NCBI RefSeq assembly: GCF_004138135.1
Contig: NZ_RYFD01000017.1
Span: 1 to 64,000, forward strand
DNA length: 64,000 nucleotides
Source of the DNA: Candidatus Oscillochloris fontis
GTDB taxonomy: Bacteria; Chloroflexota; Chloroflexia; Chloroflexales; Chloroflexaceae
Reading direction: 5' to 3'
Under the pieces are notes generated by a model, which was not told the DNA's origin, searched no databases, and saw nothing but the letters and a program-made list of their open reading frames with translations. This document shows positions 11,726 to 31,232 of the stretch, one piece after another. Positions within the stretch are counted from its first letter, which is position 1; every line of letters begins with the position of its first letter. The position numbers and the translations under genes are program-made.

Positions 11726-12385
11726 ATGGATAGTATTGCCGTTTTGATTAGCGGGTCAGGCAGTAACCTGCAAGCCCTCTTTGATGCCCAAGATGCTGGT
11801 GAACTAGGCAGTGTCCATGTCAACCTCGTGGTGAGTGACCGCGCTGATGCCTATGGGCTTCAGCGCGCCCTCAAGCGCGGTGTGGCGGCTGCCCACGTCC
11901 CACTGCCCTCGGCACCCGCCGGAACCGCCCGCCGAGCGGTTCGCGCCGCCTGGGAGGAACGCCTGGCGACGGTAGTCACCGCCTTTCAGCCCGATTTGGT
12001 GGTGCTGGCCGGGTTTATGCGGATTCTCTCGCCGATCTTCTTGCAGCACTTCCCCGATCAGGTGATCAATCAGCATCCGGCGCTGCTACCGGCTGATGGC
12101 GGCGAGACGGTGCTGACCAGCACGGGGTTACACATCCCGGCGCTGCGCGGGGCGCATGTGGTTCCCGACGCACTCCGCTTGGGGTTGAGCATCACCGGCT
12201 GTACGGTGCATCGCGTCACGCCCCGCGTGGATGATGGGCCGATCCTAGCCCAAGCCGAGGTGCCCATCCTGCCCGATGATGACGAGAGCAGCCTGCACGA
12301 GCGCATCAAGATCGCCGAGCGGCAACTCATCGTTCAGGTGGTGCGCGAGTTGGCTACATCAAGTTCCCCAGCGGCCCAAGGTTGA
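11726..12385 (+). CDS. purN: phosphoribosylglycinamide formyltransferase
   Basis: Transfers formyl from 10-formyltetrahydrofolate to GAR. It begins with the family signature VLISGSGSNLQAL, and has LAGFMRILSP, the catalytic Asn/His in INQHPALLP, and the Asp of VDDGPILAQ. Between HPALLP and the next helix it is about 15 residues longer than the B. subtilis/E. coli pattern (the GGETVLTSTGLHIP segment). The start is the ATG aligned with the family N-terminus; an upstream in-frame start lies inside purD. Its 3' end overlaps the convergent gvpK by 32 bases, leaving no room for a separate terminator. Confidence 0.93.
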   Translation: MDSIAVLISGSGSNLQALFDAQDAGELGSVHVNLVVSDRADAYGLQRALKRGVAAAHVPLPSAPAGTARRAVRAAWEERLATVVTAFQPDLVVLAGFMRILSPIFLQHFPDQVINQHPALLPADGGETVLTSTGLHIPALRGAHVVPDALRLGLSITGCTVHRVTPRVDDGPILAQAEVPILPDDDESSLHERIKIAERQLIVQVVRELATSSSPAAQG

Positions 12386-17638: not shown

Positions 17639-19585
17639 TTAATCGGACATACCGGCAAGGCTACGCGCCTGAACGATCCAATCTTCAACATTGGCCAGCC
17701 GTCCGGCATCACCAAGCGCCTTACGCAGATCCTCAGGGGTACTCAGCGCAAGTTGGATGTAGGTCGAGATCCCGGCGCGTTCTAAGCGCTGTTGGAGTGC
17801 CGGGCCAATACCGTGGATCGTGGTCAGATTATCACGGTAGGTACGGGTGAGTGGCAGATCAGCGGATTCCTCAGCCGCACGCGGCGACTTGGGGACGGTA
17901 TCGCCATGCAGGGTGAGCACCGCCGCACTCATTGCCTGATAGAGTGGCAGCATCTGACGCCGAACATCCTCGATCATCAGCAAGAAGATCTCGCGCTGCG
18001 CCGGGACGGAAGGCCAGGGCACCGCCTCCAACTCATGCGTCAGCATCTCGACATCATGTTGAAGTTCGCTCACCACCTCACCATAGTGTGTGCGCTCATC
18101 AATAGTGATCTGGTCAAGATGCGCGGTTGCCTTCGCCAAAAAGGGCTGAACCTGGGTCACCAAGGCGGAGACTAAGCCATGCAGTTGCTGCTGCTGGGCA
18201 TCATCATGCATCCCCTGTTCAAGCACCTTCAAGATCGCGGCACGTTTGGCCTGCACATCAGCAACAATATCCTCGTCGAGATCAGGTTGAGCCTCGGCTG
18301 GTGTAGCCTGAACCGTCTCGACGACGATAGGTTCAACCTCAGGGAGCGGCTCAGCTACCTCAGAAACAACCAGAGCGGACGCAGGTAGTGCAACTGAATC
18401 AGGCTCCGCAGGGGCGGATTCGGCTGGGGTTGGATCTGGTGCCAGCGAATTGGATGCAACCGCCGGTGCCGTTGGCTGGGGCGTGGGTGGGTAGGAGAGG
18501 ATCGCGGCCATACCACGAATACGCTCCTGGCGTTGGCGATACAACTCAGCCGCCTGAGCCGCCGCCATTTCAGCGCGCTGGGCTTGCAAGGTTGCCAGGT
18601 AGCCCATCACATCCTGACGCCGAGCGTGCAACTCAGTCACCCGCTGGGACTGGGCGGCGGTGGCACTTGCGTGACGTTCACGACTGATCGTCGTGATCAT
18701 TGAGGAGACATCATCATGCAACGCAGCCATCTCAGCCTCAAGCTGAGTACGCTGAGCCTGCGCCTGAGCGTCCAGATCCGCGCTATTGGTACGGCGCAAC
18801 TGGGCTACATCGGCACGTAACTGGGCCACATCGGCACGCAGGGCAATCATCGTAGCCTGAAGTTCTTCACGTTTAGCTTGCGTCTGGGCGTTTAAGGTCG
18901 CCCGTTCAGTTTGCAGCATCATGCGCACATCGGCACGTAGCGCAGCCATATTGGCATGAAGTTCTGCACGCTTGGACTGAGCCTGGGCAGAAAGATCATC
19001 ACTATTGCTACGGCGCATCGCCGCCACATCGGCACGCAACGCAGCCATACGCGCATCAAGCGCCTCACGCTGCGCACGCGCCATCGCCGCCACATCATCA
19101 CTATTAGCTCGGCGCAAGGTTGTCACCCCATCGCGCAAGGCCATACAATCGGCATACAAAGATTCACGCTGGGCTTGGGCTTGGGTAGCCAACTCAGCGC
19201 TATTGCTCTGGCGGAGGGCCGCCACATCAGCCCGCATCCCCATCACATCGGCACGCAGCGCAGCCATATTGGCATGAAGTTCTTCACGCTTGGACTGAGC
19301 CTGCGCAACCAGTGTCTCGGTATTGGTACGGAGCATTGTCGCCACATCATCACGCAACGCGGTACGGCCAGCCTGAAGCTGATCACGTTGGGCCTGGGCC
19401 TGGGCAGCCAAATCGGCACTGACGTCGGCGAGGGTATCCGCCACCGTCGCCTGCAACTCAGCGGCCTGGCGCTCAAGAAGTTGCCGCTGTTCAGCGACAG
19501 CCTGCTGCCGGGAGGATCGGTAGGCTTCGAGTTGTTGCTCGGCAGCCTTACGCACTTCGGCGGAACGGGAACGAGAAGCTCTCAC
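17639..19585 (-). CDS. GvpC-like protein: seven 33-residue-type repeats plus C-terminal helix-hairpin-helix
   Basis: Probable external scaffold of the gas vesicle. Residues 59-303 form seven tandem repeats beginning LxAQAQxxR; five are exactly 33 residues and two are 40 (33 plus one heptad, at 92-131 and 231-270). A 33-residue period is the hallmark of cyanobacterial GvpC, which wraps and stiffens the shell, and the gene sits between gvpA and gvpN as gvpC does. Beyond the repeats are another coil, a Pro/Ala/Glu-rich linker (about 370-440), a second helical region and, in the last 60 residues, a helix-hairpin-helix-like domain (IHGIGPALQQRLERAGI) not known in GvpC. At 648 residues it is three times GvpC's usual size. 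Start GTG with AGGAG. Confidence 0.75.
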   Translation of the reverse strand: MRASRSRSAEVRKAAEQQLEAYRSSRQQAVAEQRQLLERQAAELQATVADTLADVSADLAAQAQAQRDQLQAGRTALRDDVATMLRTNTETLVAQAQSKREELHANMAALRADVMGMRADVAALRQSNSAELATQAQAQRESLYADCMALRDGVTTLRRANSDDVAAMARAQREALDARMAALRADVAAMRRSNSDDLSAQAQSKRAELHANMAALRADVRMMLQTERATLNAQTQAKREELQATMIALRADVAQLRADVAQLRRTNSADLDAQAQAQRTQLEAEMAALHDDVSSMITTISRERHASATAAQSQRVTELHARRQDVMGYLATLQAQRAEMAAAQAAELYRQRQERIRGMAAILSYPPTPQPTAPAVASNSLAPDPTPAESAPAEPDSVALPASALVVSEVAEPLPEVEPIVVETVQATPAEAQPDLDEDIVADVQAKRAAILKVLEQGMHDDAQQQQLHGLVSALVTQVQPFLAKATAHLDQITIDERTHYGEVVSELQHDVEMLTHELEAVPWPSVPAQREIFLLMIEDVRRQMLPLYQAMSAAVLTLHGDTVPKSPRAAEESADLPLTRTYRDNLTTIHGIGPALQQRLERAGISTYIQLALSTPEDLRKALGDAGRLANVEDWIVQARSLAGMSD

Positions 19586-19660
19586 CGCACGTCTCCTTTG
19601 ACGAGATAGCAGATGATCCAGAGACTACACACGAACATCTTGATGGTCTCAAGTGGCGAT

Positions 19661-19697
19661 GTGCCAATGGAAGTGAGCGCGCAACTTCAATTGGCAC
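19661..19697. terminator. hairpin directly downstream of gvpA
   Basis: Arms GTGCCAATGGAAGT and ACTTCAATTGGCAC pair over 14 positions with one mismatch. Lying between gvpA and the GvpC-like gene, it could give excess monocistronic gvpA mRNA, as needed for the major shell protein. There is no U tract on the minus-strand transcript. Confidence 0.6.
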
Positions 19698-19710
19698 ACC
19701 ACCGAGCGCA

Positions 19711-19926
19711 CTAAGCGGCGGCAGAGGACGATGCGGTTAGACCGACGGCCTCAGCATACTTGAGATACGTATCTACACCGGCGATGACGATGCGGGCCTC
19801 AACCGCGAGCAGCTCGATGCCCACCAAGGACACGCGGACCCAAGCGTCAATAACGATACCTTTGTCTAGGATGCGATCCACGACTTCGGCCAGGCTGCTA
19901 GATGCGTTGACCTTCTCGACTGCCAT
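19711..19926 (-). CDS. gvpA: major gas vesicle structural protein GvpA
   Basis: Forms the ribbed, gas-permeable shell that gives buoyancy. 71 residues with the near-invariant GvpA core: [61 protein letters not shown] lies 6 bases before the ATG, the strongest ribosome site in the cluster, fitting a highly expressed protein; an in-frame upstream start is not needed. It is the only canonical gvpA in the window and heads the operon. A 44-bp array of four 11-bp units lies about 84 bases upstream. Confidence 0.97.
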
Positions 19927-20009
19927 ACCAAACCTCCTCGTAAACGTATAGCGGGAACTGTTGGGTGCGCTACCCAAGGTTATTAGACCGCAAAATAGGC
20001 ACCCTAGCT

Positions 20010-20053
20010 GTTAGGGCTGTGCAAGCGTTCTGTTAGGTTTACGTTAGGAAAAG
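20010..20053 (+). promoter_or_regulatory. four-unit 11-bp direct-repeat operator upstream of gvpA
   Basis: Read on the plus strand the units are GTTAGGGCTGT, GCAAGCGTTCT, GTTAGGTTTAC and GTTAGGAAAAG, in exact 11-base register. The same ordered four units occur upstream of the sensor kinase (22539-22582). An 11-bp direct-repeat period is typical of OmpR/PhoB-type regulators, and such a regulator is encoded next door. Its near end is about 84 bases from the gvpA start; TCTAAT on the minus strand (19982-19987) could be the -10. The units read away from gvpA, opposite to the kinase site. Confidence 0.7.
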
Positions 20054-20115
20054 ATAAAAATGAAGACAGGGCGAGGGCATTCCAATGGCCCAAATCCTGT
20101 CTGTAGTGCCAAGAT

Positions 20116-20826
20116 TTAGGCCACCTGTTCGGTACGCAGGATATAGCCATGGCGCGGAACGGTACAGATATGAACCGGGTGGCGCGGATCGGGTTCGATC
20201 TTCGCACGCAGATTCATCACATGCCAGCGAACCAAACCTGGCTCGGCTGTCTCAGGGGTATAATTCCAGACTTCACGCAGCAGACGTTCACTTGAGCAGA
20301 CCTCGTTGGGGTGGCGCATGAGGTAGCCAAGCAGATCAAACTCGGCAGGCGTAAGTTGGACCGGAGCGCCAGCGACTTCAGCTTGGCATGTGTGCAGATC
20401 GAGAGTCAGATTGCCTGCCCGTAGCACCGCAGTACGAGAACTGAGGTGGGGATTATTGGGGCTACGGCGCAACAACACCTTAATCCGAGCCTTCAATTCA
20501 CGCAGATCGAATGGCTTGGTCAGATAGTCATCGGCACCCTCTTCAAAGCCACGCAGACGATCTTCAATCGTATTACGTCCGGTAAGAAAGAGGATCGGCA
20601 CATCGGCCAGATTACTGCGGGTATGCAAGGTATGGCACAACGCAAAGCCATCCATTTTAGGCATCGCCACATCAAGAACGATCAGATCGGGGCGTTGGCG
20701 CTGGGCCATGTCCAGTGCCTCATCGCCATCATGGGCCATACGCACCGTATGCCCATCATCATAGAGTGATCGCCCAACCACCCAAAGCAGATCATCCTCA
20801 TCATCAACTAGCAGGATGTATGCCAT
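20116..20826 (-). CDS. OmpR/PhoB-family response regulator
   Basis: DNA-binding response regulator. The receiver domain (1-115) has the acidic pair in LLVDDEDD, the phospho-acceptor Asp in LIVLDVAMPKMDG, and TKPF with the conserved Lys. The C-terminal winged helix (about 135-235) has LTPAEFDLLGYLMRHPNEVCSSERLLREVW and RVHxxNLRAKIEPD-like text typical of the Trans_reg_C domain. The ATG has GGAGG 7 bases upstream and overlaps the preceding receiver gene by 19 bases, so the pair is translationally coupled. It is the likely binder of the 11-bp repeat operators that flank the operon. Confidence 0.93.
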   Translation of the reverse strand: MAYILLVDDEDDLLWVVGRSLYDDGHTVRMAHDGDEALDMAQRQRPDLIVLDVAMPKMDGFALCHTLHTRSNLADVPILFLTGRNTIEDRLRGFEEGADDYLTKPFDLRELKARIKVLLRRSPNNPHLSSRTAVLRAGNLTLDLHTCQAEVAGAPVQLTPAEFDLLGYLMRHPNEVCSSERLLREVWNYTPETAEPGLVRWHVMNLRAKIEPDPRHPVHICTVPRHGYILRTEQVA

Positions 20827-21203
20827 ACCCAAGCCTCCTGCTGTTGAGTCTCATCGGCAAACACGTGCTGGAGCATCGCTTGAACATCGGTACGCAAGAA
20901 GGGTTTGGCTAAAAACCCAACAAGCGGCACGTGGCTACGACACCAGTCCTCTTCATAATAGTAACCCGACATCATTACCATGCGGGTCTGTGGGCTGAGC
21001 GCATGGATCTGCTGGGCAAGATGAATCCCATGACTATCGGGCAAAATCGCATCAATGAAGGCTATGGTAACGTCATACTGCACGACAAAATCGAGTGCGG
21101 CAGCCCCCGAACCCACCGCAGTCACAGTCACACCATCGGCCTTCAACATACGCTCAAGCGCCCAACAGAGATCTGGTTCATCATCAATGATGAGAATATG
21201 CAT
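20808..21203 (-). CDS. stand-alone receiver-domain response regulator
   Basis: A single CheY-like receiver of 131 residues: IIDDEPDLCWALE, phospho-acceptor Asp in TIAFIDAILPDSHG, MMSGYYYEED and Lys in LAKPFLRTD. No output domain, so it probably acts by protein contact or as a phosphate relay or sink between the kinase and the OmpR-type regulator that overlaps its end. It starts 8 bases after the kinase stop. Confidence 0.9.
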   Translation of the reverse strand: MHILIIDDEPDLCWALERMLKADGVTVTAVGSGAAALDFVVQYDVTIAFIDAILPDSHGIHLAQQIHALSPQTRMVMMSGYYYEEDWCRSHVPLVGFLAKPFLRTDVQAMLQHVFADETQQQEAWVWHTSC

Positions 21204-21211
21204 AATCCCTC

Positions 21212-22459
21212 TTAATCGCTCACCGGTAGTCGAATGACAAAGGTAGCACCTTTGTCTGGCTCGCTTACAACCTCAAGTGTGCCCTGATGCTGCTGAATAA
21301 TGCTATAACTGATCGAAAGACCAAGCCCTGTTCCCTTACCAACGGTTCGTGTCGTAAAGAAGGGGTCAAAGATCTTAGCGGCATGTTCTTTGGTAATGCC
21401 ATGGCCAGTATCGCAAAAGCGCAGTTCGACATGATCTCCGCTCAAGCGCGTAGTAACCGTCAGTTGCCCACCTTGGGGCATCGCGTTACAAGCATTCAGG
21501 ATGAGATTGGTAAAGACCTGCTGAAGCAGTTCTGGATTGCCATAGAGACGTGGAACATCCGGTGAAAAGTCACGTCTCAAAGTCACCTGTGAGACCAGCA
21601 TTTGGTGACTCAACAGATTAAACGTATCTTCGAGCGTGGCATGGATATTGAGTGGACGGAATCGTTCTTGGGGTGGATGGGAAAATTTGAGCAATTGTTC
21701 AATAATTAATGAGGCGCGTTGGGCCGACGTGACAATTTTTTGGACACACTGTTGGCGTAGGTCGGGGTCATCAGGATGATCTTCGAGCAACTGGGCACTC
21801 GCGGCGATGATCGCCAACGGATTACGGATCTCGTGGGCGATCCCACCCGCCATCACGCCCAACGAGGCAATCTTCGCCGACTGGGCTAGTTGGGCCTCCA
21901 AGCGACGGCGCTCGATATCATCCTCCATGAGTAAGAGTGCCGCCGTCTGACGCTCAGCGATCAGTGAGACAAACCAGAGGTCGTCGCAGGTAAAATCGTG
22001 CTGGATAGCTGCGGTACGAGCGAGGTAGAGCACCCCATGCACCTGATCACCGATTACCATCGGCACACAGAGCACCGAACGCAACGCATGTTGTTCGATC
22101 TCGGCAACAAGCGACGCAGGTAAGTCGGGATTGTGCGGGAATAGGATCGGACGACACTGCTGGGCAACCCAGCCAGCGACACCCGCCCCGACATGGATTG
22201 TCGGCGACAGTGGGGTTGGTGGAGGAACGCCCAGTTCTGCGGACACAGACAGCATGCTGCGTTCAGGATCATACTGCATGAACGCAGCATAATCAGCCTG
22301 AGTCGCCTCAGTGAGCACCTTTAGAAGATCGAGATCCAAGGTTGCGGGGTTACGGTGGGAGAAGAAAAAATGTTGCCAGCAATGGAAGAGCGACTCCAAG
22401 GTTGGGTGCCATGTGCGCTCGACAAGTGGTGGTGATATGGGTAGATTCTGGCTTGTCAT
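21212..22459 (-). CDS. GAF-domain sensor histidine kinase
   Basis: Soluble sensor kinase, no transmembrane helix. A GAF domain spans about 50-185 (GAGVAGWVAQ, RSVLCVPMVIGDQVHGVLYLA). The HisKA domain has the intact H-box GGIAHEIRNPLAII. The ATPase domain has NLILNACNAMPQGG, FCDTGHGI, FDPFFTTR and GTGLGLSISYSII. The signal is not evident; GAF may bind a small molecule or chromophore. First gene of the kinase, receiver, OmpR operon that runs toward gvpA. ATG chosen with GAGAG upstream. A four-unit 11-bp repeat array lies 80 bases upstream, suggesting autoregulation. Confidence 0.93.
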   Translation of the reverse strand: MTSQNLPISPPLVERTWHPTLESLFHCWQHFFFSHRNPATLDLDLLKVLTEATQADYAAFMQYDPERSMLSVSAELGVPPPTPLSPTIHVGAGVAGWVAQQCRPILFPHNPDLPASLVAEIEQHALRSVLCVPMVIGDQVHGVLYLARTAAIQHDFTCDDLWFVSLIAERQTAALLLMEDDIERRRLEAQLAQSAKIASLGVMAGGIAHEIRNPLAIIAASAQLLEDHPDDPDLRQQCVQKIVTSAQRASLIIEQLLKFSHPPQERFRPLNIHATLEDTFNLLSHQMLVSQVTLRRDFSPDVPRLYGNPELLQQVFTNLILNACNAMPQGGQLTVTTRLSGDHVELRFCDTGHGITKEHAAKIFDPFFTTRTVGKGTGLGLSISYSIIQQHQGTLEVVSEPDKGATFVIRLPVSD

Positions 22460-22538
22460 CGCTGACTCTCTACGATAGGCGGCAGCGAGATTGGCGCGTC
22501 TCGGTGCCACAAATAGTACCGATCAACATAGCATATAA

Positions 22539-22582
22539 CCGGCCCTAACGCAACCCTAACGGAAGTCTTGCGTAGCACTAAC
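22539..22582 (-). promoter_or_regulatory. four-unit 11-bp direct-repeat operator upstream of the sensor kinase
   Basis: Read on the minus strand the units are GTTAGTGCTAC, GCAAGACTTCC, GTTAGGGTTGC and GTTAGGGCCGG. They match the array at 20010-20053 unit by unit, about 31 of 44 positions, in the same order. The near end is 80 bases from the kinase start codon. Likely site for the OmpR-type regulator of the same operon. Confidence 0.7.
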
Positions 22583-22848
22583 ACCGATAATGACAATCTT
22601 CGTGTGTAATAGAAAGCAGCAATAATACCCTCTGGGATCAGTACCTCGTTCCCAAGAGTCCGCTGTGATCAGCGAACCCAACGACTACGTCCCCGATCAG
22701 TGCCGCCACAGTTCGTGCCTGACGGAACCCAGCCCAGAGCGAATCACACGATAGATCTGGTGTAGGGGCATCCAGTAGGGATGGTACGATCCCCCGCTTC
22801 ATCATACAATGCGTCAAGTGCAGGTAGTGAGTGCCTGAGGAGATGGCA
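22583..22848. other. divergent intergenic region, no gene seen
   Basis: Separates the kinase operon from the cobalamin-sensor operon. No open frame of note and no clear -35/-10 pair was found on the plus strand. GATCAGTGCCGCCACAGTTC at about 22696 only loosely recalls a B12-box, so no cobalamin riboswitch is called. GAGGAG at the right end is the ribosome site of the next gene. Confidence 0.5.
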
Positions 22849-24990
22849 ATGACCCAACCGACAAACGCCGTCACACCGCGAAGCGCCGTAGGCCCTTCTC
22901 TCGCCAAGCTGGTAAGCCACATCCCCGCCGAACAGCATTGGCGTCGTCAGGCTGATGAGCTGATCGTCATTGGTCGGCAGATGGAATTGATGGCACAAGA
23001 GCAGGGTCGCAGTGCACAGGTCATGCTGGGGACGCTGCGCTTCTCGCTCTTTCGGATGCACCAGGGACGGATCGCGCAGTTAGCTCCGTATTGCCAAAGT
23101 GTGACGGTCTATGGCGAGGCGGATGTGGCACCACCGGACATCCCTGGAGTGACATTCGTTTCGGTACCACCGGGCGCACCAATGAGCCAGGAGTGGTTCT
23201 TGGTCGTAGATAGCCCAGGGTTCTGGGGGGCGCTGATCGCGCATGCGAGCCAGGATCGGGCAGATGGAGGAGCGCGGCGGTATCTGTTCGATGGCGTACT
23301 AACGACTGATGAGCGCGTGGTAAGCCGGGCCAGCCTGCTCTTGAGCCTCGCGAGCGGGAAGGGTGCCACCGTCACCGCCGAGCGTGACGCGATGGCGAAC
23401 CAGGCGCGCTGGGGACACTTGTCCTACAGCCTCGTGACCCACCCGGAGGCGCATCGGCTCGAGCTGCTGGGCTGTCTGATTGACATGCCCGACATCCACG
23501 CGCTGCTCTCGATTCCTTCGTTTGGCCTCGACACGATGGGGCCAGAGGCGATGAAGGTGTTGCGACGCTACTGCGGAACCTTGGGCGAGGTTCTCTACCG
23601 TGCGGAGGGCACCACGCTGGTTCCGGTTGCCTGGGGGAATGCCCAGCGCCCCCCAAACCAGCCGATCAATACGGGTGCCGCTGGTCAAGCATTTACCAAA
23701 GGTAGCCTGATCCTGAATCGGCTCCAGCCAAGTGATCCTGAGCAGGCGCTCTTCAACAATGCCAACTCCATGTCGGCGATTCCGCTCTTTGTGAGTGGTT
23801 CACCGTGGGGGGTATTGTTGGTCGGTCAGCCTGAATATGATCCAGAGAAGTCGCTGACCACCACCGCAACGGTAGGGATTGCGGCCATGCTGGAGCAGGT
23901 GATCGAGGCAAACCCATCAGCCGCGATAGCACCAGCATCAGCGGCGGCACCGGCCTACACGCCGCCTGCGGCACCGGCCTACACGCCACCGGCGGCACCG
24001 GCCTATACGCCACCGGCGGCACCAGCCTACACGCCGCCTGCGGCTCCGGCCTACACACCACCGGCGGCTCCGGCCTACACGCAGCCCAGCCAACCGAGCT
24101 TCCCCAGCCAGCCGGCGAGTGGGGTCTTCCCGACCAGCCCAGCGACACCAGGAAGCCCAGCGGCTCCGCCCATGCCGATTATGCCATCGGCACCCACCTT
24201 GCCGCCCCGTCCATCAATTCTGGCACCGCAGCACAACCAGTCCACAACCTTCGGGCTACCGACATGGATGAAGGCACCTGGCCGCAGTGGGCCGGGGGGC
24301 ACAGGCCCGGCAGCCGCACCACCCGCCGAGGGGCCGAGTGTGCGCAGTTGGCCAGTATTGCGCCAGCGCCTCTTTAGTGCCTTGGTCGCCTACGACCAGC
24401 AGGCAGCCGAACAGGTCTGGAGTGAGGCGGTTGGGATCTACTCACCAGAGCAGATCTGTAATGAGTTGCTCACACCGGTGCAGGTTGAGATCGGGAACGG
24501 CTGGCACCGTGGCGAAGTCAGTGTAGCCTCCGAGCACTTTAGTAGCCGCTTCGTGCAGAGCAAGTTGCTCAGTCTCTTCAACACATCAACCGATCACATC
24601 AATGGGCCAACCGCAATTGTGGCATGTGCCCAGGGAGAGTTGCACGAGATCGGGGCGATCATGATCAGCCTCTTCCTGCGTTGGGGCGGATTCCATGTGA
24701 TCTACCTGGGGCAGAATGTGCCCAACTCGACCATCGAAGAGATGGTCGCCCAACTCAACCCACAGGTCTTGGCGCTCTCGGCAGCCACAGTTGCCGCCGC
24801 CAATGGCCTGATCGCCGCCAGCCAGATCATCGCCCAACTGCCAGCCCCGCGACCGTTCTTCATGTATGGCGGCTTCGCCTTCTGGGATCGTGACGATCTG
24901 CGCAATCGGGTACAGAATGGCTTCTACTTCCAGGGCGATATACGCCAAATCGCCCGCATTGTCGCTGAACAGATGAACCAGAACGCCTGA
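22849..24990 (+). CDS. DICT-GAF-cobalamin-binding sensor protein with CarH-type photoreceptor residues
   Basis: Predicted soluble sensor. The N-terminal 180 residues resemble a DICT sensory domain; a GAF-like domain follows (about 200-355: YRAEGTTLVPVAWG, MSAIPLFVSGSPWGVLLVGQP). Then comes a linker with six PAAPAYTP repeats (about 365-410). The C-terminal 210 residues are a helical cap plus Rossmann B12-binding domain. Key residues match the Thermus CarH light sensor: W552-H553 and E562-H563 (the Wx9EH motif; W131, H132, E141 and H142 in CarH) and the lower axial ligand H599 in GELHEIG (CarH H177). It carries no MerR DNA-binding domain, so output must go through partners. Start ATG with GAGGAG at 6 bases. 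First gene of a seven-gene operon. Confidence 0.8.
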   Translation: MTQPTNAVTPRSAVGPSLAKLVSHIPAEQHWRRQADELIVIGRQMELMAQEQGRSAQVMLGTLRFSLFRMHQGRIAQLAPYCQSVTVYGEADVAPPDIPGVTFVSVPPGAPMSQEWFLVVDSPGFWGALIAHASQDRADGGARRYLFDGVLTTDERVVSRASLLLSLASGKGATVTAERDAMANQARWGHLSYSLVTHPEAHRLELLGCLIDMPDIHALLSIPSFGLDTMGPEAMKVLRRYCGTLGEVLYRAEGTTLVPVAWGNAQRPPNQPINTGAAGQAFTKGSLILNRLQPSDPEQALFNNANSMSAIPLFVSGSPWGVLLVGQPEYDPEKSLTTTATVGIAAMLEQVIEANPSAAIAPASAAAPAYTPPAAPAYTPPAAPAYTPPAAPAYTPPAAPAYTPPAAPAYTQPSQPSFPSQPASGVFPTSPATPGSPAAPPMPIMPSAPTLPPRPSILAPQHNQSTTFGLPTWMKAPGRSGPGGTGPAAAPPAEGPSVRSWPVLRQRLFSALVAYDQQAAEQVWSEAVGIYSPEQICNELLTPVQVEIGNGWHRGEVSVASEHFSSRFVQSKLLSLFNTSTDHINGPTAIVACAQGELHEIGAIMISLFLRWGGFHVIYLGQNVPNSTIEEMVAQLNPQVLALSAATVAAANGLIAASQIIAQLPAPRPFFMYGGFAFWDRDDLRNRVQNGFYFQGDIRQIARIVAEQMNQNA

Positions 24991-25011
24991 TCGCAGCCGA
25001 TGGAGTAACTC

Positions 25012-27099
25012 ATGTCCAGCGCTGAAAACTTCTCCCTGCCTGCGCTGCTGGGATTGGGTCCAAAAGGCTGTCTGCTCGAATTGGATCAGGTGCGTGATCT
25101 TGCCGTGATGCTCATGCGCAGCCGCCCGCCAGATATGCGGGCGGGCTGCTTCATTGGCGGAAGACTATCGGTTGGGAAGCATACACCTACCGACGCCATC
25201 GTACTAGCGGAAGGTTTCGGGAGTGCGCCATTTCTGGTGATTGCAGGTCAGCAGGGTGCCAGTGCCCTGCTGACCTGGGCTGAATCGGGGCACTACCGCA
25301 CCCAGATCATCACCGACCCGGAGTATGTTGATCGTGCGGCGCTGGTGCTGGCACAGCTCAGTGACCACGAATATTCGATGCGTGATCTGGTCGAAGCCGA
25401 GGTACAGCGAGCCTATGTCGCACGCCTCGCCGCGACATTGATCGGAGAACTCCAACTCACTGAAACGGATCGCCATGCGCTCATGCCGAATGAGAGTCGC
25501 TGGCTCCATTTGGCCGTGGCAATGGCTAATCGCAGTGGGGCAGAGGCACTGCTGAGTATCCAAGAGGTGCGCCAACTCTTTCAGGAGATGGGAATCCAAC
25601 GCGCAATACTGGGGCATCTTGACGGAGATCAGCATCAGTTCATACCGTTAGCGAGCGAAGGAGGGCCGATTCCGGCTCCATGCACGGTTCAAACCCCCGG
25701 TATGATCGCCAATGTCATTCATCGGGGGCGCGTAGGAACCGCGACCTCAGCACCCCACAGTGGGTTGCAGGGGATCGCCAGTTGGATGGGCAACAACGTT
25801 CTGACGGCAGTCCCGTTGCTGCGCAATGAGCGCGTAGGGGGATTGTTGCTGGTTGCCAGCCCGCGCCCGATACCGACACCAGGTCAGGCGCTCCTGAGTG
25901 GGATCGCAAGCCTCATCGCGCTCAATATGAGCGAGATAGCCAGCAGCACAGCCAGCCGCAGCAATGAGAACGGGAGTAAGACGGCACGAACACTGGCAAC
26001 GGCAACCGCCAACCGTTCGACAAGCACCCGTGATGGCAGCCATATTGTCCGTGAACTGGGTTCGTTACTTACCCACCTTGATGACGCGATCATGCTGGTG
26101 GATGGGCGTGGTCAAGTGACCGACTATACCCCGGCGATGGCGGAACTGTTAGGGATTGATCACAACACCAAAGGGCAGCCGCTGATCGCTAGTGGCGCCG
26201 CGTGTCTCTCATCGCTCTTAGCCGAAGCGTTGATGGAGGATGCGGTCGAGGCACAGGAGATCGAACTACCGAATGGGAGACAAGCCAGCGCTTCGGTGAT
26301 TGGCTTTTCGCAAGGGTTATGGGCGTTTGTGTTACGCCCACAGAGCAAAGCGGAGCGACCAGAGCCTGTGGTGGTGGCAGCACCAGCAGCAGCTATCGTT
26401 CCAGAGAGTGAGCGTAACGAGAGCTTTTTGGCAAACTTCTCAAATATTATTCGGGTACCGTTGCGCGAGTTACGCGAATTGATCACGCGAGTACCCGCAG
26501 CCGGTGAACTAAACGAACAACAATCGCGGCTGATTGGCCAAGTGGTACGCCTGAACAGTGAACTGACCATGTTGGTCAACGATCTGCTCTCACTTGGGCA
26601 AATTCGGCTCCAGACCGGCGATAACCGGGTGATGTTGCGGCTCGATTTACTGATTGAGGCTGCGGTAGGCACCCAATATGCCGAGTTTGGACGGCGCGGC
26701 CAAGAGGTTGAGACCGATATTCAAGCCAAGCTCCCCAGAGTGTATGGTTCGGAGGAGGGTCTGGGCCGGGCCATCTCAGCACTGATTGACAATGCGATCA
26801 AATATAGCCCATCAGGTGCTCATATTCGTGTTTCAGCGAAGCAAGAGGGCAAGATGGTTATCGTTCAAATTAAAGACAGCGGCCCCGGTTTGCGGCCCGA
26901 CGAGCTGGCCCAAATCTTTGATCCATTTTACCGGGCTGCAACCACCGAGCATATGGGAGTTTCAGGCCGTGGCCTCGGACTCACGATCGCCAAGGCGGTT
27001 ATTGAGCAACACGATGGAAGCATCTGGGCCGAGGGTGAACCCGAACAGGGCTGTACCTTCACCTTCCAGTTACCAACTATCGAGAGCAGCACGGGCTGA
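25012..27099 (+). CDS. histidine-kinase-like protein with Asn in place of the phospho-acceptor His
   Basis: Multi-domain sensor, 695 residues. N-terminal sensory region (about 1-180, possibly DICT-related), GAF (about 190-305, AVPLLRNERVGGLLLVASP), PAS (about 345-420, LDDAIMLVDGRGQVTDYTPAMAELLG), a HisKA-like dimer helix and a full ATPase domain (ISALIDNAIKYSP, IKDSGPGL, DPFYRA, GRGLGLTIAKA). The H-box reads FLANFSNIIRVPL where kinases read FxxxxSHELRTPL, so Asn replaces the His. It probably cannot autophosphorylate on that residue and may act as an ATP-binding scaffold or modulate another kinase. 21 bases after the cobalamin sensor; GGAG ribosome site. Confidence 0.88.
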   Translation: MSSAENFSLPALLGLGPKGCLLELDQVRDLAVMLMRSRPPDMRAGCFIGGRLSVGKHTPTDAIVLAEGFGSAPFLVIAGQQGASALLTWAESGHYRTQIITDPEYVDRAALVLAQLSDHEYSMRDLVEAEVQRAYVARLAATLIGELQLTETDRHALMPNESRWLHLAVAMANRSGAEALLSIQEVRQLFQEMGIQRAILGHLDGDQHQFIPLASEGGPIPAPCTVQTPGMIANVIHRGRVGTATSAPHSGLQGIASWMGNNVLTAVPLLRNERVGGLLLVASPRPIPTPGQALLSGIASLIALNMSEIASSTASRSNENGSKTARTLATATANRSTSTRDGSHIVRELGSLLTHLDDAIMLVDGRGQVTDYTPAMAELLGIDHNTKGQPLIASGAACLSSLLAEALMEDAVEAQEIELPNGRQASASVIGFSQGLWAFVLRPQSKAERPEPVVVAAPAAAIVPESERNESFLANFSNIIRVPLRELRELITRVPAAGELNEQQSRLIGQVVRLNSELTMLVNDLLSLGQIRLQTGDNRVMLRLDLLIEAAVGTQYAEFGRRGQEVETDIQAKLPRVYGSEEGLGRAISALIDNAIKYSPSGAHIRVSAKQEGKMVIVQIKDSGPGLRPDELAQIFDPFYRAATTEHMGVSGRGLGLTIAKAVIEQHDGSIWAEGEPEQGCTFTFQLPTIESSTG

Positions 27100-27119
27100 G
27101 CGCCGTAAGGTTGAGCGTT

Positions 27120-28010
27120 ATGCGCTACAGCATTCTGATGTTTGAAACCGATACTGCCCATAGCAGCGCCTGGTCTGAGGCGCTGCTGCGTATTGCCAGC
27201 CAACAGGGAGTCACGATCACGGTGACCGTGGCGCGGACGGTACCTGTGGCCCAGTTCCATGCTGGGCGACGCCAGTTCCATTTACTGGTTGCCCCGCTCT
27301 CAGATGAATCACTCAACTTGGTGACACGGTTGCGCACGCGGAGTACGCATCTGCGGGCGCTCTTCTTCCACCCAGCCGAGACCCCGGAGCAATTGCTTCA
27401 GGATGTCCGGTGGCGCGGCTACACCCTGGCGGTCGTCCCAGAGAGTTCTGATGCGTTCGTGTTCGCAGTCAGCAAGGCACTCGGCTTGCACTTGATTGAT
27501 GACCCTGAGCACCAGGGCCGACCCGCCGCCACGATAAGCGATGTCCAGGTCTTGTTGGATGTCTTGCGCTGGCAGACCAAAGCCCAGTTGGTGCTGTATA
27601 CCGACTATATCGGCAACCTGATCACCCAACGCGGCGACCCGTCGAAGTTGGAGTTAGATGCGGTATCGTCGTTGATCGCAGGCAGTTTTGGAAATTCATT
27701 TGAACTCGGACGGGCGCTGCATGATCCGAATACACGCCATCTGAGTGTGCTTGAGGGTGAGCATTTTGATCTCTATGCCACCAATGCCGGAAATTATCGC
27801 CTACTGGCACTCATCTTTGACAAAGAGTTTGTCAGCCCAAAACTTGGCTATGTTTGGTTACAATTGAAGCGCAGTGCTGATCAGCTTAGTCATATGCGCA
27901 TCGTTGAAGGTAATGTCGGTGACGTGATCGCGGCTGAATTGACGGAGTCACTCAACAATGAGTTTGATCGCATATTCGGTAGTGATCTCATTGACACTCG
28001 TAAGTCCTAA
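27120..28010 (+). CDS. roadblock/LC7-like protein with receiver-like N-terminus
   Basis: 296 residues. The N-terminal 120 resemble a degenerate receiver-type alpha/beta fold (YSILMFETD start, HLLVAPLSDE, LRALFFHPAETPEQLL, TLAVVPESSDAFV) but lack the usual acidic triad. The C-terminal half (about 155-270) looks like a roadblock/LC7 domain: LVLYTDYIGNLITQRGDPSKLELDAVSSLIAGSFGNSFELGRALH, then FDLYATNAGNYRLLALIFD. Roadblock proteins (MglB type) bind and regulate MglA GTPases, and one is encoded two genes downstream. Start ATG chosen; an in-frame TTG is 9 bases earlier. Confidence 0.75.
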   Translation: MRYSILMFETDTAHSSAWSEALLRIASQQGVTITVTVARTVPVAQFHAGRRQFHLLVAPLSDESLNLVTRLRTRSTHLRALFFHPAETPEQLLQDVRWRGYTLAVVPESSDAFVFAVSKALGLHLIDDPEHQGRPAATISDVQVLLDVLRWQTKAQLVLYTDYIGNLITQRGDPSKLELDAVSSLIAGSFGNSFELGRALHDPNTRHLSVLEGEHFDLYATNAGNYRLLALIFDKEFVSPKLGYVWLQLKRSADQLSHMRIVEGNVGDVIAAELTESLNNEFDRIFGSDLIDTRKS

Positions 28011-28034
28011 CGAGAGTCTCTCTAGGAGGACGTA

Positions 28035-28514
28035 ATGGCACGTTCGCAGCTTGTTCTCTCCGCCGCACAACTCCAGGAGCTACGTCAGCTCTTGGCGCAA
28101 TTTGGACAGCAGGCTGATGTGCGCTTCGCCTTCCTGGGCGATCTGAGCGGTCTGGATATTGTGAGTTGGGATGCCGAGAATGAGACCGATGTGGGGAGTG
28201 TCGCAGCACTCGCCGCCGGTGATATGATGGCAACCCTAGAGGTAGGACGTTTGCTGGGAGGCAAGCGGGCCTGCAACCTGATCGTACAGGAGCATGAAGA
28301 CCAGACTATTCTGATCTCGCGGGTTGGTGAGGCCCTCATTCTACTTGTCTCGACCTCGCGGGATGTACCGCTAGGCTGGTCGCGCTTAGCGATTAAACGG
28401 GCCAATGATCGCATCCTCGCAATCGTGGGGAGTGCGGCAATGGTACCACCTCCCGACGCGATCTCCGAAGATTTCGAGCGCTCGTTTGCCGCGCAGCTCG
28501 ACAACATCTGGTAA
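28035..28514 (+). CDS. roadblock/LC7 domain protein (MglB-like)
   Basis: 159 residues with a single roadblock/LC7 domain: ADVRFAFLGDLSGLDIVSWDAENETDVGSVAALAAGDMMATLEVGRLLG, LIVQEHEDQTILISRVGEALILLVSTS. In Myxococcus MglB, a protein of this fold, is the activating partner of MglA in polarity control. The gene immediately precedes an MglA-type GTPase with 15 bases between, the usual arrangement for a cognate pair. Strong AGGAGG ribosome site. Confidence 0.9.
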   Translation: MARSQLVLSAAQLQELRQLLAQFGQQADVRFAFLGDLSGLDIVSWDAENETDVGSVAALAAGDMMATLEVGRLLGGKRACNLIVQEHEDQTILISRVGEALILLVSTSRDVPLGWSRLAIKRANDRILAIVGSAAMVPPPDAISEDFERSFAAQLDNIW

Positions 28515-28529
28515 AACTGCGAGGCTGCC

Positions 28530-29114
28530 ATGTTTATCAACTGGGCTATTGGCGAACTCAATCTCAAGATCGTCTACTACGGTGCCGCGTTGAGTGGCAA
28601 GACGACCAATCTTCAGTATATTCACGCACGAACCCCAGCCAATTTGCGGGGGCGGCTGATCTCACTCAAGACTCAACAGGAGCGCACGCTGCTCTTCGAT
28701 TTTCTTCAACTTGAGATGGGGAAGGTGAATAACCTCAAACCCAAATTTAAGCTCTACACCGTACCGGGTCAGGTCTATTATGCAGCCAGTCGTCGGCTGA
28801 TTCTGCAAGGGACTGATGGGATCGTCTTTGTGGTTGACTCGCAGGCCGGGCGCTTGGCCGAAAACCAGGAGTCTTGGTTCACCATGGAGCAGCACCTGAT
28901 TGAACTGGGGTACGATATTAACACCTTCCCGATCATTGTGCAGCTCAACAAGCGCGACATGCCGCATGTGATGTCGGCAGCGGAGTTGCGACGCCAACTT
29001 GACGTGCTGAATCGGCCTTGTTTTGAGGCATCGGCACTGCGGGGGAGTGGGGTATTCGATACGCTCAAAGCAGCCATGAACGCGGTGGTAGCCCAGGTAC
29101 GACGCACGATCTAG
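28530..29114 (+). CDS. MglA-type Ras-like small GTPase
   Basis: 194 residues. P-loop GAALSGKT (18-25), switch II TVPGQVYY (78-84; Ras family DxxGQ is altered to PGQ as in MglA proteins), VVDSQ, the guanine-specificity motif NKRD (140-143) and EASAL. MglA switches between GTP- and GDP-bound states to set cell polarity, gliding or pilus placement. With the roadblock partners upstream it forms the probable output of the sensor operon. Chloroflexales filaments glide, so motility control is a reasonable inference, not shown by the sequence. Confidence 0.93.
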   Translation: MFINWAIGELNLKIVYYGAALSGKTTNLQYIHARTPANLRGRLISLKTQQERTLLFDFLQLEMGKVNNLKPKFKLYTVPGQVYYAASRRLILQGTDGIVFVVDSQAGRLAENQESWFTMEQHLIELGYDINTFPIIVQLNKRDMPHVMSAAELRRQLDVLNRPCFEASALRGSGVFDTLKAAMNAVVAQVRRTI

Positions 29115-29184
29115 ATCCGATGGGTTATCTATACGATAGTCTTGGGGCCACATGCCCCTAGAGAGATACCGGGAGAGGTGCCCT

Positions 29185-30441
29185 ATGCAACAGGCGACCC
29201 CGATCATCGAGAGCCTTCAAGCCTCTAGTTACGACCAGAATGTGCGGATTGGTGAGTTGACCTTCTTTACAACTGAGAAGGTTGACCCAGTAAGCTACGC
29301 CGCCCTACTGCGTGGTCTGACGGTTGTCTACGATAGCTTCGAGTATGCGATTGCCCAATCGGGCGATCCGGTGGTACAAGCGCTGTGGGCAGCCGATCTG
29401 CGCAAGCAGGCGATGATCCGCCATGACATGTCGTTTGTGGCCATGCATGCGCGTGAGATTCCGGCACTTGAGTTGAGTGCGGAGGTACTGGCCGAGCATA
29501 TTCGGATGCGTTCGCTCCAGATGCCGCGCTCGCTGCTCGGAACCGCCTATGCGCTGGCCACATGGTACATGGGTGGCGACGCCTTTGCGACAAAGGTGGG
29601 TTGGTCGGTGCAACTACGCGAAGGCGCTGGGCTGAGTTTTTTCAACAGTTTTAATGCGTGGGGGCAGACCCGTTGGCCACAGTTCGCCGCTCAGATGGAT
29701 GCGCTCCAGTTTACGCCTGAGGTACGTCAGCAGGTGCTTGAAGCGGCCTACGAGACGCTCGATGGCATTGAGCAGATGATCGGCCAGATCTACCCGATCA
29801 ATGACAACCCGATCAGTGAGTTGGTCATGCTGATCAATCCGTTGGGCGGGAATCACCCAATCACCAACGATATGGAAGAGATCAAGGCGGTCTTCCGCTC
29901 GCATCGGCGGATTGATAAGCTCTTCCCATTTATGGAGTTGCGTTACGGACTCAAGGGGCGGCGTTTCTCGTGGAGTGATGGCTGCTGGATTGCGTCGTTG
30001 CTTGATGAGGGGCAGGAGAGTATCAACCAACAGGTACGCTGGCTGACGCGGCTGATGGCACGGCGTGGGATGCCACAGTGGTTCATGGAATGCCACTTGA
30101 TCCTTATGACCGAAGATCTGACCCAGGCCCGGCCATACAATCAGGAGCGCTACCTGAAACTCTCCGAGACAGCGCGGGTCTTAGCCGAAGAGCGGCGGGC
30201 GAGTATTAACGATGCCAATCTGGTTGCGCTCGATAATGCCTTCTATGCCCGTGTGGGCCAGGAGTGGCGCACCGTCATGCCCAACTGTGGTGGGCTGATC
30301 GCTTCAGCCGTCGCCGATGACCGGAACGGTGTCCCACATGCGCTTGAGGCATTTATGAGTTGGATGACTGACTCCACACGTTTCCCTGAGGTCTGGATCA
30401 ATGCCGCCCACGAGACGATTGAGATGGCGCGACGGCTGTAG
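29185..30441 (+). CDS. heme-oxygenase-like helical protein (tentative)
   Basis: 418 residues, all-helical by eye. The N-terminal half resembles the heme oxygenase/TENA fold: TTEKVDPVSYAALLRGLTVVYDSFEYAI, then LLGTAYALATWYMGGDAF and REGAGLSFFNSFNAWG, recalling the LGxLYVLEGSxLGG and GxGxxFF segments of bacterial heme oxygenases. The proximal His normally near the N-terminus is not in the expected place, so heme cleavage is uncertain. The C-terminal 200 residues are unfamiliar. If active it would supply biliverdin, the chromophore of phytochromes; if not, it may be a helper of the GTPase module. The ATG has GAGAGG upstream and follows MglA by 70 bases. Confidence 0.45.
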   Translation: MQQATPIIESLQASSYDQNVRIGELTFFTTEKVDPVSYAALLRGLTVVYDSFEYAIAQSGDPVVQALWAADLRKQAMIRHDMSFVAMHAREIPALELSAEVLAEHIRMRSLQMPRSLLGTAYALATWYMGGDAFATKVGWSVQLREGAGLSFFNSFNAWGQTRWPQFAAQMDALQFTPEVRQQVLEAAYETLDGIEQMIGQIYPINDNPISELVMLINPLGGNHPITNDMEEIKAVFRSHRRIDKLFPFMELRYGLKGRRFSWSDGCWIASLLDEGQESINQQVRWLTRLMARRGMPQWFMECHLILMTEDLTQARPYNQERYLKLSETARVLAEERRASINDANLVALDNAFYARVGQEWRTVMPNCGGLIASAVADDRNGVPHALEAFMSWMTDSTRFPEVWINAAHETIEMARRL

Positions 30442-30480
30442 AAGCGAGAGCACGTATTAGGGAGCAGGGGCAGGGCACTC

Positions 30481-30551
30481 AATCTGGATCTGCGCAGATC
30501 ATCGTGTCACCTGCACACCCTACTACGTAGACACATAACGAGATCCAGATT
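30481..30551. promoter_or_regulatory. structured leader before the DUF4388 gene
   Basis: AATCTGGATCT (30481-30491) and AGATCCAGATT (30541-30551) are exact complements enclosing two further self-complementary stretches: GATCTGCGCAGATC (30487-30500) and GTGTC...GACAC with CTACGTAG inside. It may be an mRNA leader structure or an operator, ending 33 bases before the start codon. Confidence 0.45.
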
Positions 30552-30584
30552 GCCAGACCCATGTAGCAGTAGAAGGGGAGCAGG

Positions 30585-31232
30585 ATGTTTCTCCAAGGCA
30601 GCTTTGCACTTATCAGCCCAGCCGCGCTGATCCAGACGCTTTGTCAGGAGCAGCGGACGGTGACCATTACGGCGAGCCGTGGCAATGGTACCGCCCGGAT
30701 CTGGATCATTGAAGGTCTGGTGGTGGGTGCCCGCTGTAACGAGCATACCGACGAGGAGGCGATCTTCCGGGTGGCCCAATGGGCCGACGGCATGTTCACC
30801 GTCTCTGGGGGCGCCGAGGAGGCACCAATGACGATGGAGGCCGAAGCCGAGACTCTCTTGCTCGAAGCAGCACGCCGCCGCGACGAGGGGGAGTTGGCAC
30901 CGCCGCCGCATGCTCCCGCTGATCTGCGGCTCGACCAGATTCTCGCCGATTGTCCAGCACTCTCCGGGGGGGCGCTGGTACGTTCGGATGGGGCTTCGAT
31001 TATGTCGGGGATGCCGGTCTCGGCACCGTTAGTTGCGACAAGCCTCGCGGTGATTGGGGTCGCGTTGGGGAATACGTCGGGGATGGCAGCCTATATCGGG
31101 CCGGGTCAACGGTTGTTGCTCACCCGGAGTGCAGCGGGCCACATCCTGTTGGCGGCGGTGCGCCCCGGCGAGGGGCTGGGCGAGGCGGGTGCGCAGCTTG
31201 AGCGGATTATTGGGACAGCGTTGCCGGTATAG
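30585..31232 (+). CDS. DUF4388 (PATAN-type) protein with C-terminal roadblock-like domain
   Basis: 215 residues. The N-terminal 95 match DUF4388: FLQGSFALISPAALIQTLCQEQRTVTIT, GTARIWIIEGLVVGARC, GEEAIFRVAQW-like and ADGMFTVSGG. The C-terminal part (about 115-215: GALVRSDGASIMSGMP, AYIGPGQRLLLTRSAAGHILLAAVRPG) resembles a roadblock/LC7 domain. DUF4388 is known from MglA-linked and two-component systems in gliding and cyanobacterial species (PATAN). It is the last gene of the sensor module, 143 bases after the previous one, so possibly with its own promoter. Strong AAGGGGAG ribosome site. Confidence 0.8.
   Translation: MFLQGSFALISPAALIQTLCQEQRTVTITASRGNGTARIWIIEGLVVGARCNEHTDEEAIFRVAQWADGMFTVSGGAEEAPMTMEAEAETLLLEAARRRDEGELAPPPHAPADLRLDQILADCPALSGGALVRSDGASIMSGMPVSAPLVATSLAVIGVALGNTSGMAAYIGPGQRLLLTRSAAGHILLAAVRPGEGLGEAGAQLERIIGTALPV

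Follow-up and report, generated by a model that had tools for sequence, protein, structure and literature searches.

A shared operator that probably switches on gas vesicles and a predicted photosensor/polarity operon together in floating photosynthetic Chloroflexales

Gas vesicle genes and the two repeat arrays

The window, that is the whole stretch of 64,000 nucleotides that was analysed, belongs to Candidatus Oscillochloris fontis and carries a gvp cluster, of which gvpA is the first gene and which extends to approximately position 12354, with GvpF/L and GvpO encoded downstream. Next to gvpA are placed an OmpR-type regulator, the other genes of its operon and two short arrays of repeats:

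19711-19926, minus strand: gvpA, gas vesicle structural protein (Pfam PF00741)
20010-20053, plus strand: array 1, four 11-bp units, with homologous sites upstream of gvpA in other genomes
20116-20832, minus strand: OmpR-type response regulator, the likely binder of the arrays (PF00072, PF00486; recognition helix LVRWHVMNLRAKIE)
20808-21203, minus strand: receiver-only protein of the regulator operon (PF00072)
21212-22459, minus strand: sensor histidine kinase (GAF, HisKA and HATPase_c by Pfam), probable partner of the regulator
22539-22582, minus strand: array 2, the same four units as array 1, predicted to serve a divergent plus-strand promoter

Within the gvp cluster, a 648-aa protein is encoded between gvpA and a gvpN-like ATPase (17639-19585). 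Repeats are visible in it by eye and it has a weak helix-hairpin-helix end, so that it is possibly GvpC-like.

The units of array 1 are, in order, GTTAGGGCTGT, GCAAGCGTTCT, GTTAGGTTTAC and GTTAGGAAAAG, and those of array 2 are GTTAGTGCTAC, GCAAGACTTCC, GTTAGGGTTGC and GTTAGGGCCGG. The initial annotation had reported two 44-bp arrays of four 11-bp units with about 31 positions alike, and they are present as described, with 32 of the 44 positions identical by our count. The distances to the ATG of gvpA (83 bp) and to that of the kinase (79 bp) agree with it as well. The pattern of shared positions, allowing up to 3 mismatches, gave two matches in the window, both at the arrays, and 0 matches in 100 dinucleotide shuffles of it. 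The motif search of the full genome that had been proposed was carried out with a 24-letter pattern, which has exactly two matches in the 4.46-Mb genome, both being the arrays; the reversed control of this pattern has 0 matches in the whole 4.46 Mb. A larger regulon was considered, but half of the array (GTTAGGNNTNNGTTAGG), at 0-1 mismatch, matches the genome solely at array 1 and array 2, and this search gave no additional good site.

Other identities for the arrays were rejected. No Rfam match with an E value of 0.1 or better was obtained within 19500-23200 that would point to a structured RNA, and a scan for -35/-10 elements detects no ordinary sigma-70 promoter at either array site. A terminator of the regulator gene was discarded because array 1 is still found at gvpA in genomes whose regulator sits on another contig; the terminator scan gave a weak terminator-like match at 20001-20017 which is not above shuffle level.

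Conservation of the arrays and geometry of the promoters

Since the array pattern was derived from the window itself, other genomes offer an independent test of it. The set consisted of 61 genomes (our own and 60 relatives), and the pattern was found at up to 3 mismatches in 16 of them, with 0 matches of the reversed control in any of the 61. A search of the whole order (82 genomes) recovered the same 16 carriers. All six Oscillochloris genomes carry two matches, one of them three, and the element is also present in related genera. In the suggested comparison of the gvpA upstream regions, the four-unit array is kept in 16 genomes, our own included, and two-unit versions precede gvpA in three more. 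The sites assembled for the study of conservation number 29, of which 18 are at gvpA and 11 at the divergent gene at 22843, which encodes a protein with DICT and B12-binding domains (DICT gene). Over these 29 sites the four units follow an 11-bp direct-repeat period, and the unit letters mostly hold 1.0-2.0 bits of information, with most inter-unit letters below 0.7. As far as sequence comparison can tell, the arrays are a real, conserved element.

In a wider collection the array was found in 11 stretches, nine from Chloroflexales, Oscillochloris or uncultured Chloroflexi and two from elsewhere, namely WS1 and Thermoflexales. The WS1 match was rejected as a shift by one unit still gives a match at 5 mismatches, in the manner of a short tandem repeat, and the Thermoflexales match has no -10 hexamer. 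The same lack of a hexamer led us to reject weak array-like matches in G035 and G012:C379.

A putative promoter element accompanies both arrays of the window:

19982-19987, minus strand: inferred -10 of gvpA, TCTAAT, 22 nt after array 1
22605-22610, plus strand: inferred -10 of the DICT/B12 operon, TGTAAT, 22 nt after array 2

A TATAAT-like hexamer follows the array at an offset of 22 nt in 26 of 28 sites and of 21 nt in the other two, and the offset of the gvpA -10 is the same in all 18 gvpA sites. At the array offset at least five of the six letters are found in 25 of 28 sites; in 2000 shuffles the mean was 0.35 and the maximum 3. The letters of the hexamer vary among genera (TGTAAT, TCTAAT, TACAAT, TATGAT, TATACT), its position being constant. 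Even in genus g4, where two units remain, these are also placed 22 nt from a TATGCT by reading of the alignment. If the hexamer is the -10, the array would span approximately -78 to -35, ending where a -35 would begin; array 1, which in the gvpA direction reads CTAAC-CTAAC-CTTGC-CTAAC, would extend over roughly -78 to -35 of the putative gvpA promoter.

Most promoters with strong arrays have a poor -35 slot. The weaker arrays of g11 and of the second gvp cluster of G005 are accompanied by CAGACA, TAGACA or CTGACA as -35 with 17-nt spacing, and this trade-off between the strength of the array and the quality of the -35 fits an activator. The placement of the array, together with the poor -35 in most promoters, thus points to activation. 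Some promoters are intermediate, with a moderate -35, and these may or may not depend on an activator. We regard as unlikely that the regulator represses both promoters by blocking RNA polymerase at the arrays: OmpR-family regulators are able to repress, RpaB does so from sites near the start (PMC11633204, PMC6331805), and the g11 promoters have a usable -35, but the location of the arrays, upstream of the core promoter, is the one from which RpaB activates (PMC11633204, PMC6331805), and a good -35 is missing from most strong-array promoters.

The divergent operon and the target of array 2

On the side of array 2 opposite to the kinase there is a run of plus-strand genes (22843-31232), which we infer to form one operon:

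22843-24990, plus strand: protein with DICT and CarH-like B12-binding domains and a W-x9-EH motif, encoded by the gene that opens the second target operon
25012-27099, plus strand: histidine-kinase-like protein (weak GAF, HATPase_c), which succeeds the DICT gene in relatives
27111-28010, plus strand: protein with a C-terminal MglB-like region (NCBIfam NF052242, E 3e-6, below cut-off)
28035-28514, plus strand: Roadblock/LC7, MglB-like protein (PF03259; NF052242 48 bits, cut-off 200)
28530-29114, plus strand: MglA paralogue (solved MglA sequences, E 1e-61)
29152-30441, plus strand: heme-oxygenase-like protein, probably of the same operon (PF01126, E 2e-10)
30585-31232, plus strand: DUF4388 protein, probably the last gene of the operon (PF14332)

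The DICT gene starts at the ATG at 22843, or at 22849, which has a better RBS spacing. In the window its leader (22611-22842) is about 150 nt longer than at nine sites in relatives.

The initial annotation had assigned array 2 to the sensor kinase and proposed that the regulator autoregulates the kinase operon through it and controls gvpA through array 1, the opposite orientation of the arrays perhaps giving opposite effects. Judged by the alignments, the conserved target of array 2 is the divergent DICT/B12 gene at 22843 and not the kinase. In the six genomes of the genus, where array 2 itself has a mean pairwise identity of 0.80, the 30 nt on its DICT side have one of 0.77 with 16 of 30 columns invariant, whereas the 30 nt on the kinase side have one of 0.26, which is at chance level, and 0 of 30 invariant columns. 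Moreover, in G016 and G027 array 2 is found before the DICT gene although the regulator and the kinase are on other contigs, and no array was found in the stretches around the regulator and kinase of these two genomes. Between the array and the start of the DICT gene there are 104-127 bp at nine of ten sites, the window being the exception with about 263 bp; the distance to the kinase, measured from the matched kinase region in relatives, is widely variable. In the window array 2 does lie on the kinase strand, 79 bp from the kinase ATG, but the unconserved kinase side, the variable gap and the two genomes without an array near the kinase leave this autoregulation model very improbable.

With gvpA and the DICT gene as reference, the arrays agree in orientation and in spacing. 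The gvpA arrays are placed 66-84 bp before gvpA and reverse to it in 18 of 18 sites, and all DICT arrays within the 320 bp examined are reverse to the DICT gene. At the DICT sites of G016 and G027 and the gvpA sites of G016 and G010, the array is preceded by a co-oriented gene. The conservation of one side only and the arrangement in G016 and G027 therefore imply that array 2 had been paired with the wrong neighbour, and the puzzle of its orientation dissolves: opposite effects from opposite orientations are not borne out, and the conserved promoter beside array 2 faces the DICT/B12 gene. What stands of that proposal is the shared OmpR-type operator, gvpA as a target and the neighbouring regulator as its likely binder; autoregulation of the kinase operon falls away as the conserved function.

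A compromise would be that array 2 is bidirectional and serves the DICT operon in all carriers and in Oscillochloris the kinase operon as well. The DICT and kinase genes are indeed divergent across array 2 where genomes of the genus have both on one contig, but the kinase side has no conserved -10, and we give this arrangement a low but real likelihood. An array is present at 11 of the 20 DICT genes examined, in 11 genomes with our own among them, the eleventh being that of G009, with 4 mismatches and about 350 bp before the gene. In G007, G010, G015, G026 and G033 the recognition helix of the regulator is present and the array is at gvpA only.

The DICT/B12 protein is predicted to be a B12 photosensor by analogy with CarH, a B12-dependent photoreceptor which aligns with its C-terminal region. 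Its score against the CarH family (NF052513) is 111 bits, below the cut-off of 400. Pfam recognises DICT and B12 domains only, and no MerR-type DNA-binding domain was found by Pfam; compared with CarH the protein has the DICT domain in place of the DNA-binding domain. Of the 22 loci, two lack the C-terminal end, and all 20 orthologues in which it can be read retain the motifs W-x9-EH and E-x-H-x-x-G; by the work on CarH these motifs may denote light sensing and a role as B12 ligand. The DICT domain is itself predicted to act in light response (PMC8612252).

The GTPase of the operon matches solved MglA chains (E 1e-61) and has MglB-like neighbours, as in the MglA/MglB polarity switch, and by this analogy it may have a role in polarity or gliding. 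It differs from that system in being a second paralogue, restricted to gas-vesicle genomes among the 61 searched and adjoining a photosensor gene. Matches to the paralogue with an identity of 67% or more exist in 22 genomes, the same 22 as have a long DICT/B12 match. The remaining MglA matches, whether in this genome or in others, mostly reach about 43-53% or lower, and among them is a separate MglA (about 46%) elsewhere in the genome (G000:C138:22162-22740). The paralogue of the operon is found in 22 of the 26 gvpA-family genomes and 0 of the 35 others (Fisher 7e-13, kinship ignored); the gas-vesicle genomes without it are G006, G008, G023 and G030.

The regulator and a two-promoter regulon

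The neighbouring regulator has a receiver domain (PF00072, E 6e-30) and a Trans_reg_C domain (PF00486, E 1e-21), the usual receiver and winged-helix make-up, and is likely to be the binder of the arrays. Orthologues scoring above 220 bits exist in 20 of the 61 genomes and true gvpA (above 90 bits) in 25, G021 being a 26th with a distant family member only. With up to 4 mismatches allowed in the four-unit arrays, 19 of the 20 genomes with an orthologue have an array at gvpA, of four units in 16 of them and of two units in 3, and 0 of the 5 others have one (p 1e-4). The exception, G012, has an orthologue with KK replacing MN in the recognition helix, and among the 25 true-gvpA genomes all 19 with the WHxMN helix have the array and none of the 6 without it does (p 6e-6). 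G012 was set apart post hoc, after its changed helix was noticed, and the genomes are related, so that these p-values overstate the case; moreover, in many cases regulator, gvpA and array adjoin one another, and with this and the kinship of the genomes the counts are not independent tests. In G034 and G036 gvpA, regulator and DICT gene are all missing together, and their three congeners that were searched carry all three.

The genome encodes about 14 full-length OmpR-type regulators, and one other than the neighbouring one might bind the arrays. We consider this improbable, as the array and the recognition helix of the neighbouring regulator co-occur even when on different contigs, and this helix, which none of the 13 further full-length OmpR-type regulators detected shares, is unique among those compared.

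The kinase of the window has about 416 aa and no PAS domain; that of a relative (L031, 10704-12752) has 682 aa, and its GAF and HisKA domains are separated by PAS domains. A 364-aa protein with no Pfam match, encoded in a relative between the DICT gene and the kinase (L032, 12897-13991), is absent from that place in the window.

Presumably the GTTAGG unit of the arrays differs in its letters from the PHO unit. The PHO boxes bound by PhoB/PhoP, which are OmpR-type regulators, likewise consist of 11-nt direct repeat units placed head to tail (PMC4415409). They differ from the arrays, which have four units in one fixed order at two genome sites only and are predicted to control gas vesicles and a photosensor/MglA operon. 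RpaB is the closest NCBIfam model of the regulator (NF045944, 194 bits, below the cut-off of 330) and RpaA its closest solved sequence. The repeats of HLR1, the RpaB site, are GTTACA/TTTACA, close to the GTTAGG of the arrays, and upstream HLR1 sites activate, according to PMC11633204 and PMC6331805; HLR1 is described in the former as two 8-bp units with a 10-bp period, unlike the four units and 11-bp period seen here. RpaB also controls many genes, whereas the operator here has two genome sites. The regulators of the gvp cluster of Serratia ATCC 39006 include GvrA-C, PigP, RbsR and XyrR, and the accessible text of PMC11778176 does not describe them as OmpR-type direct-repeat systems tied to a photosensor operon. 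Among the titles and abstract openings of open-licence papers that our searches listed we found no description of an operator like the 44-bp arrays, no OmpR-type gvp regulator in Chloroflexota and no link between MglA and gas vesicles.

The arrays, their conservation, the common -10 spacing and the patterns of co-occurrence are read from the sequences, and from them we infer that the regulator binds and that it activates instead of repressing, as well as the signal and control by light. With good confidence we suggest that the arrays are one operator copied, which defines a two-promoter regulon activated by the neighbouring regulator from the same position and orientation. The adjacent kinase would phosphorylate the OmpR-type regulator encoded between the arrays, and the phosphorylated regulator would occupy the four 11-bp units in head-to-tail fashion, with probably two dimers per array. 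Bound at array 1 it would activate the gvpA operon, and at array 2 the divergent operon of the DICT/CarH-like B12 protein, kinase, MglB-like proteins and MglA paralogue, so that gas vesicles and the photosensor/MglA operon would be produced together. One regulator is thus probably what switches on both in floating photosynthetic Chloroflexales.

Gas vesicles of mesophilic Chloroflexales are reported to lie near septa (PMC7332563). From this report, the co-occurrence described above and the shared control in 11 genomes we are tempted to speculate, though the chances are modest, that the DICT protein, its kinase and the second MglA/MglB pair constitute a dedicated, light-responsive polarity module of gas-vesicle Chloroflexales which determines where the vesicles are formed or kept, or balances floating against gliding, and which is synchronised with the vesicles by the operator. 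A candidate regulator, an operator and a promoter position can now be named for the gas vesicle genes of Chloroflexota, and buoyancy is linked to a predicted B12 photosensor and to an MglA paralogue limited to gas-vesicle genomes among the 61 searched. The use of light by anoxygenic phototrophs in setting their depth, and the reason for the septal location of their gas vesicles, thereby become testable.

Regarding the gas vesicle genes of relatives, G005 contains a second gvp cluster (L050, G005:C34), which has a regulator paralogue to itself and two gvpA genes preceded by an array with 3 mismatches.
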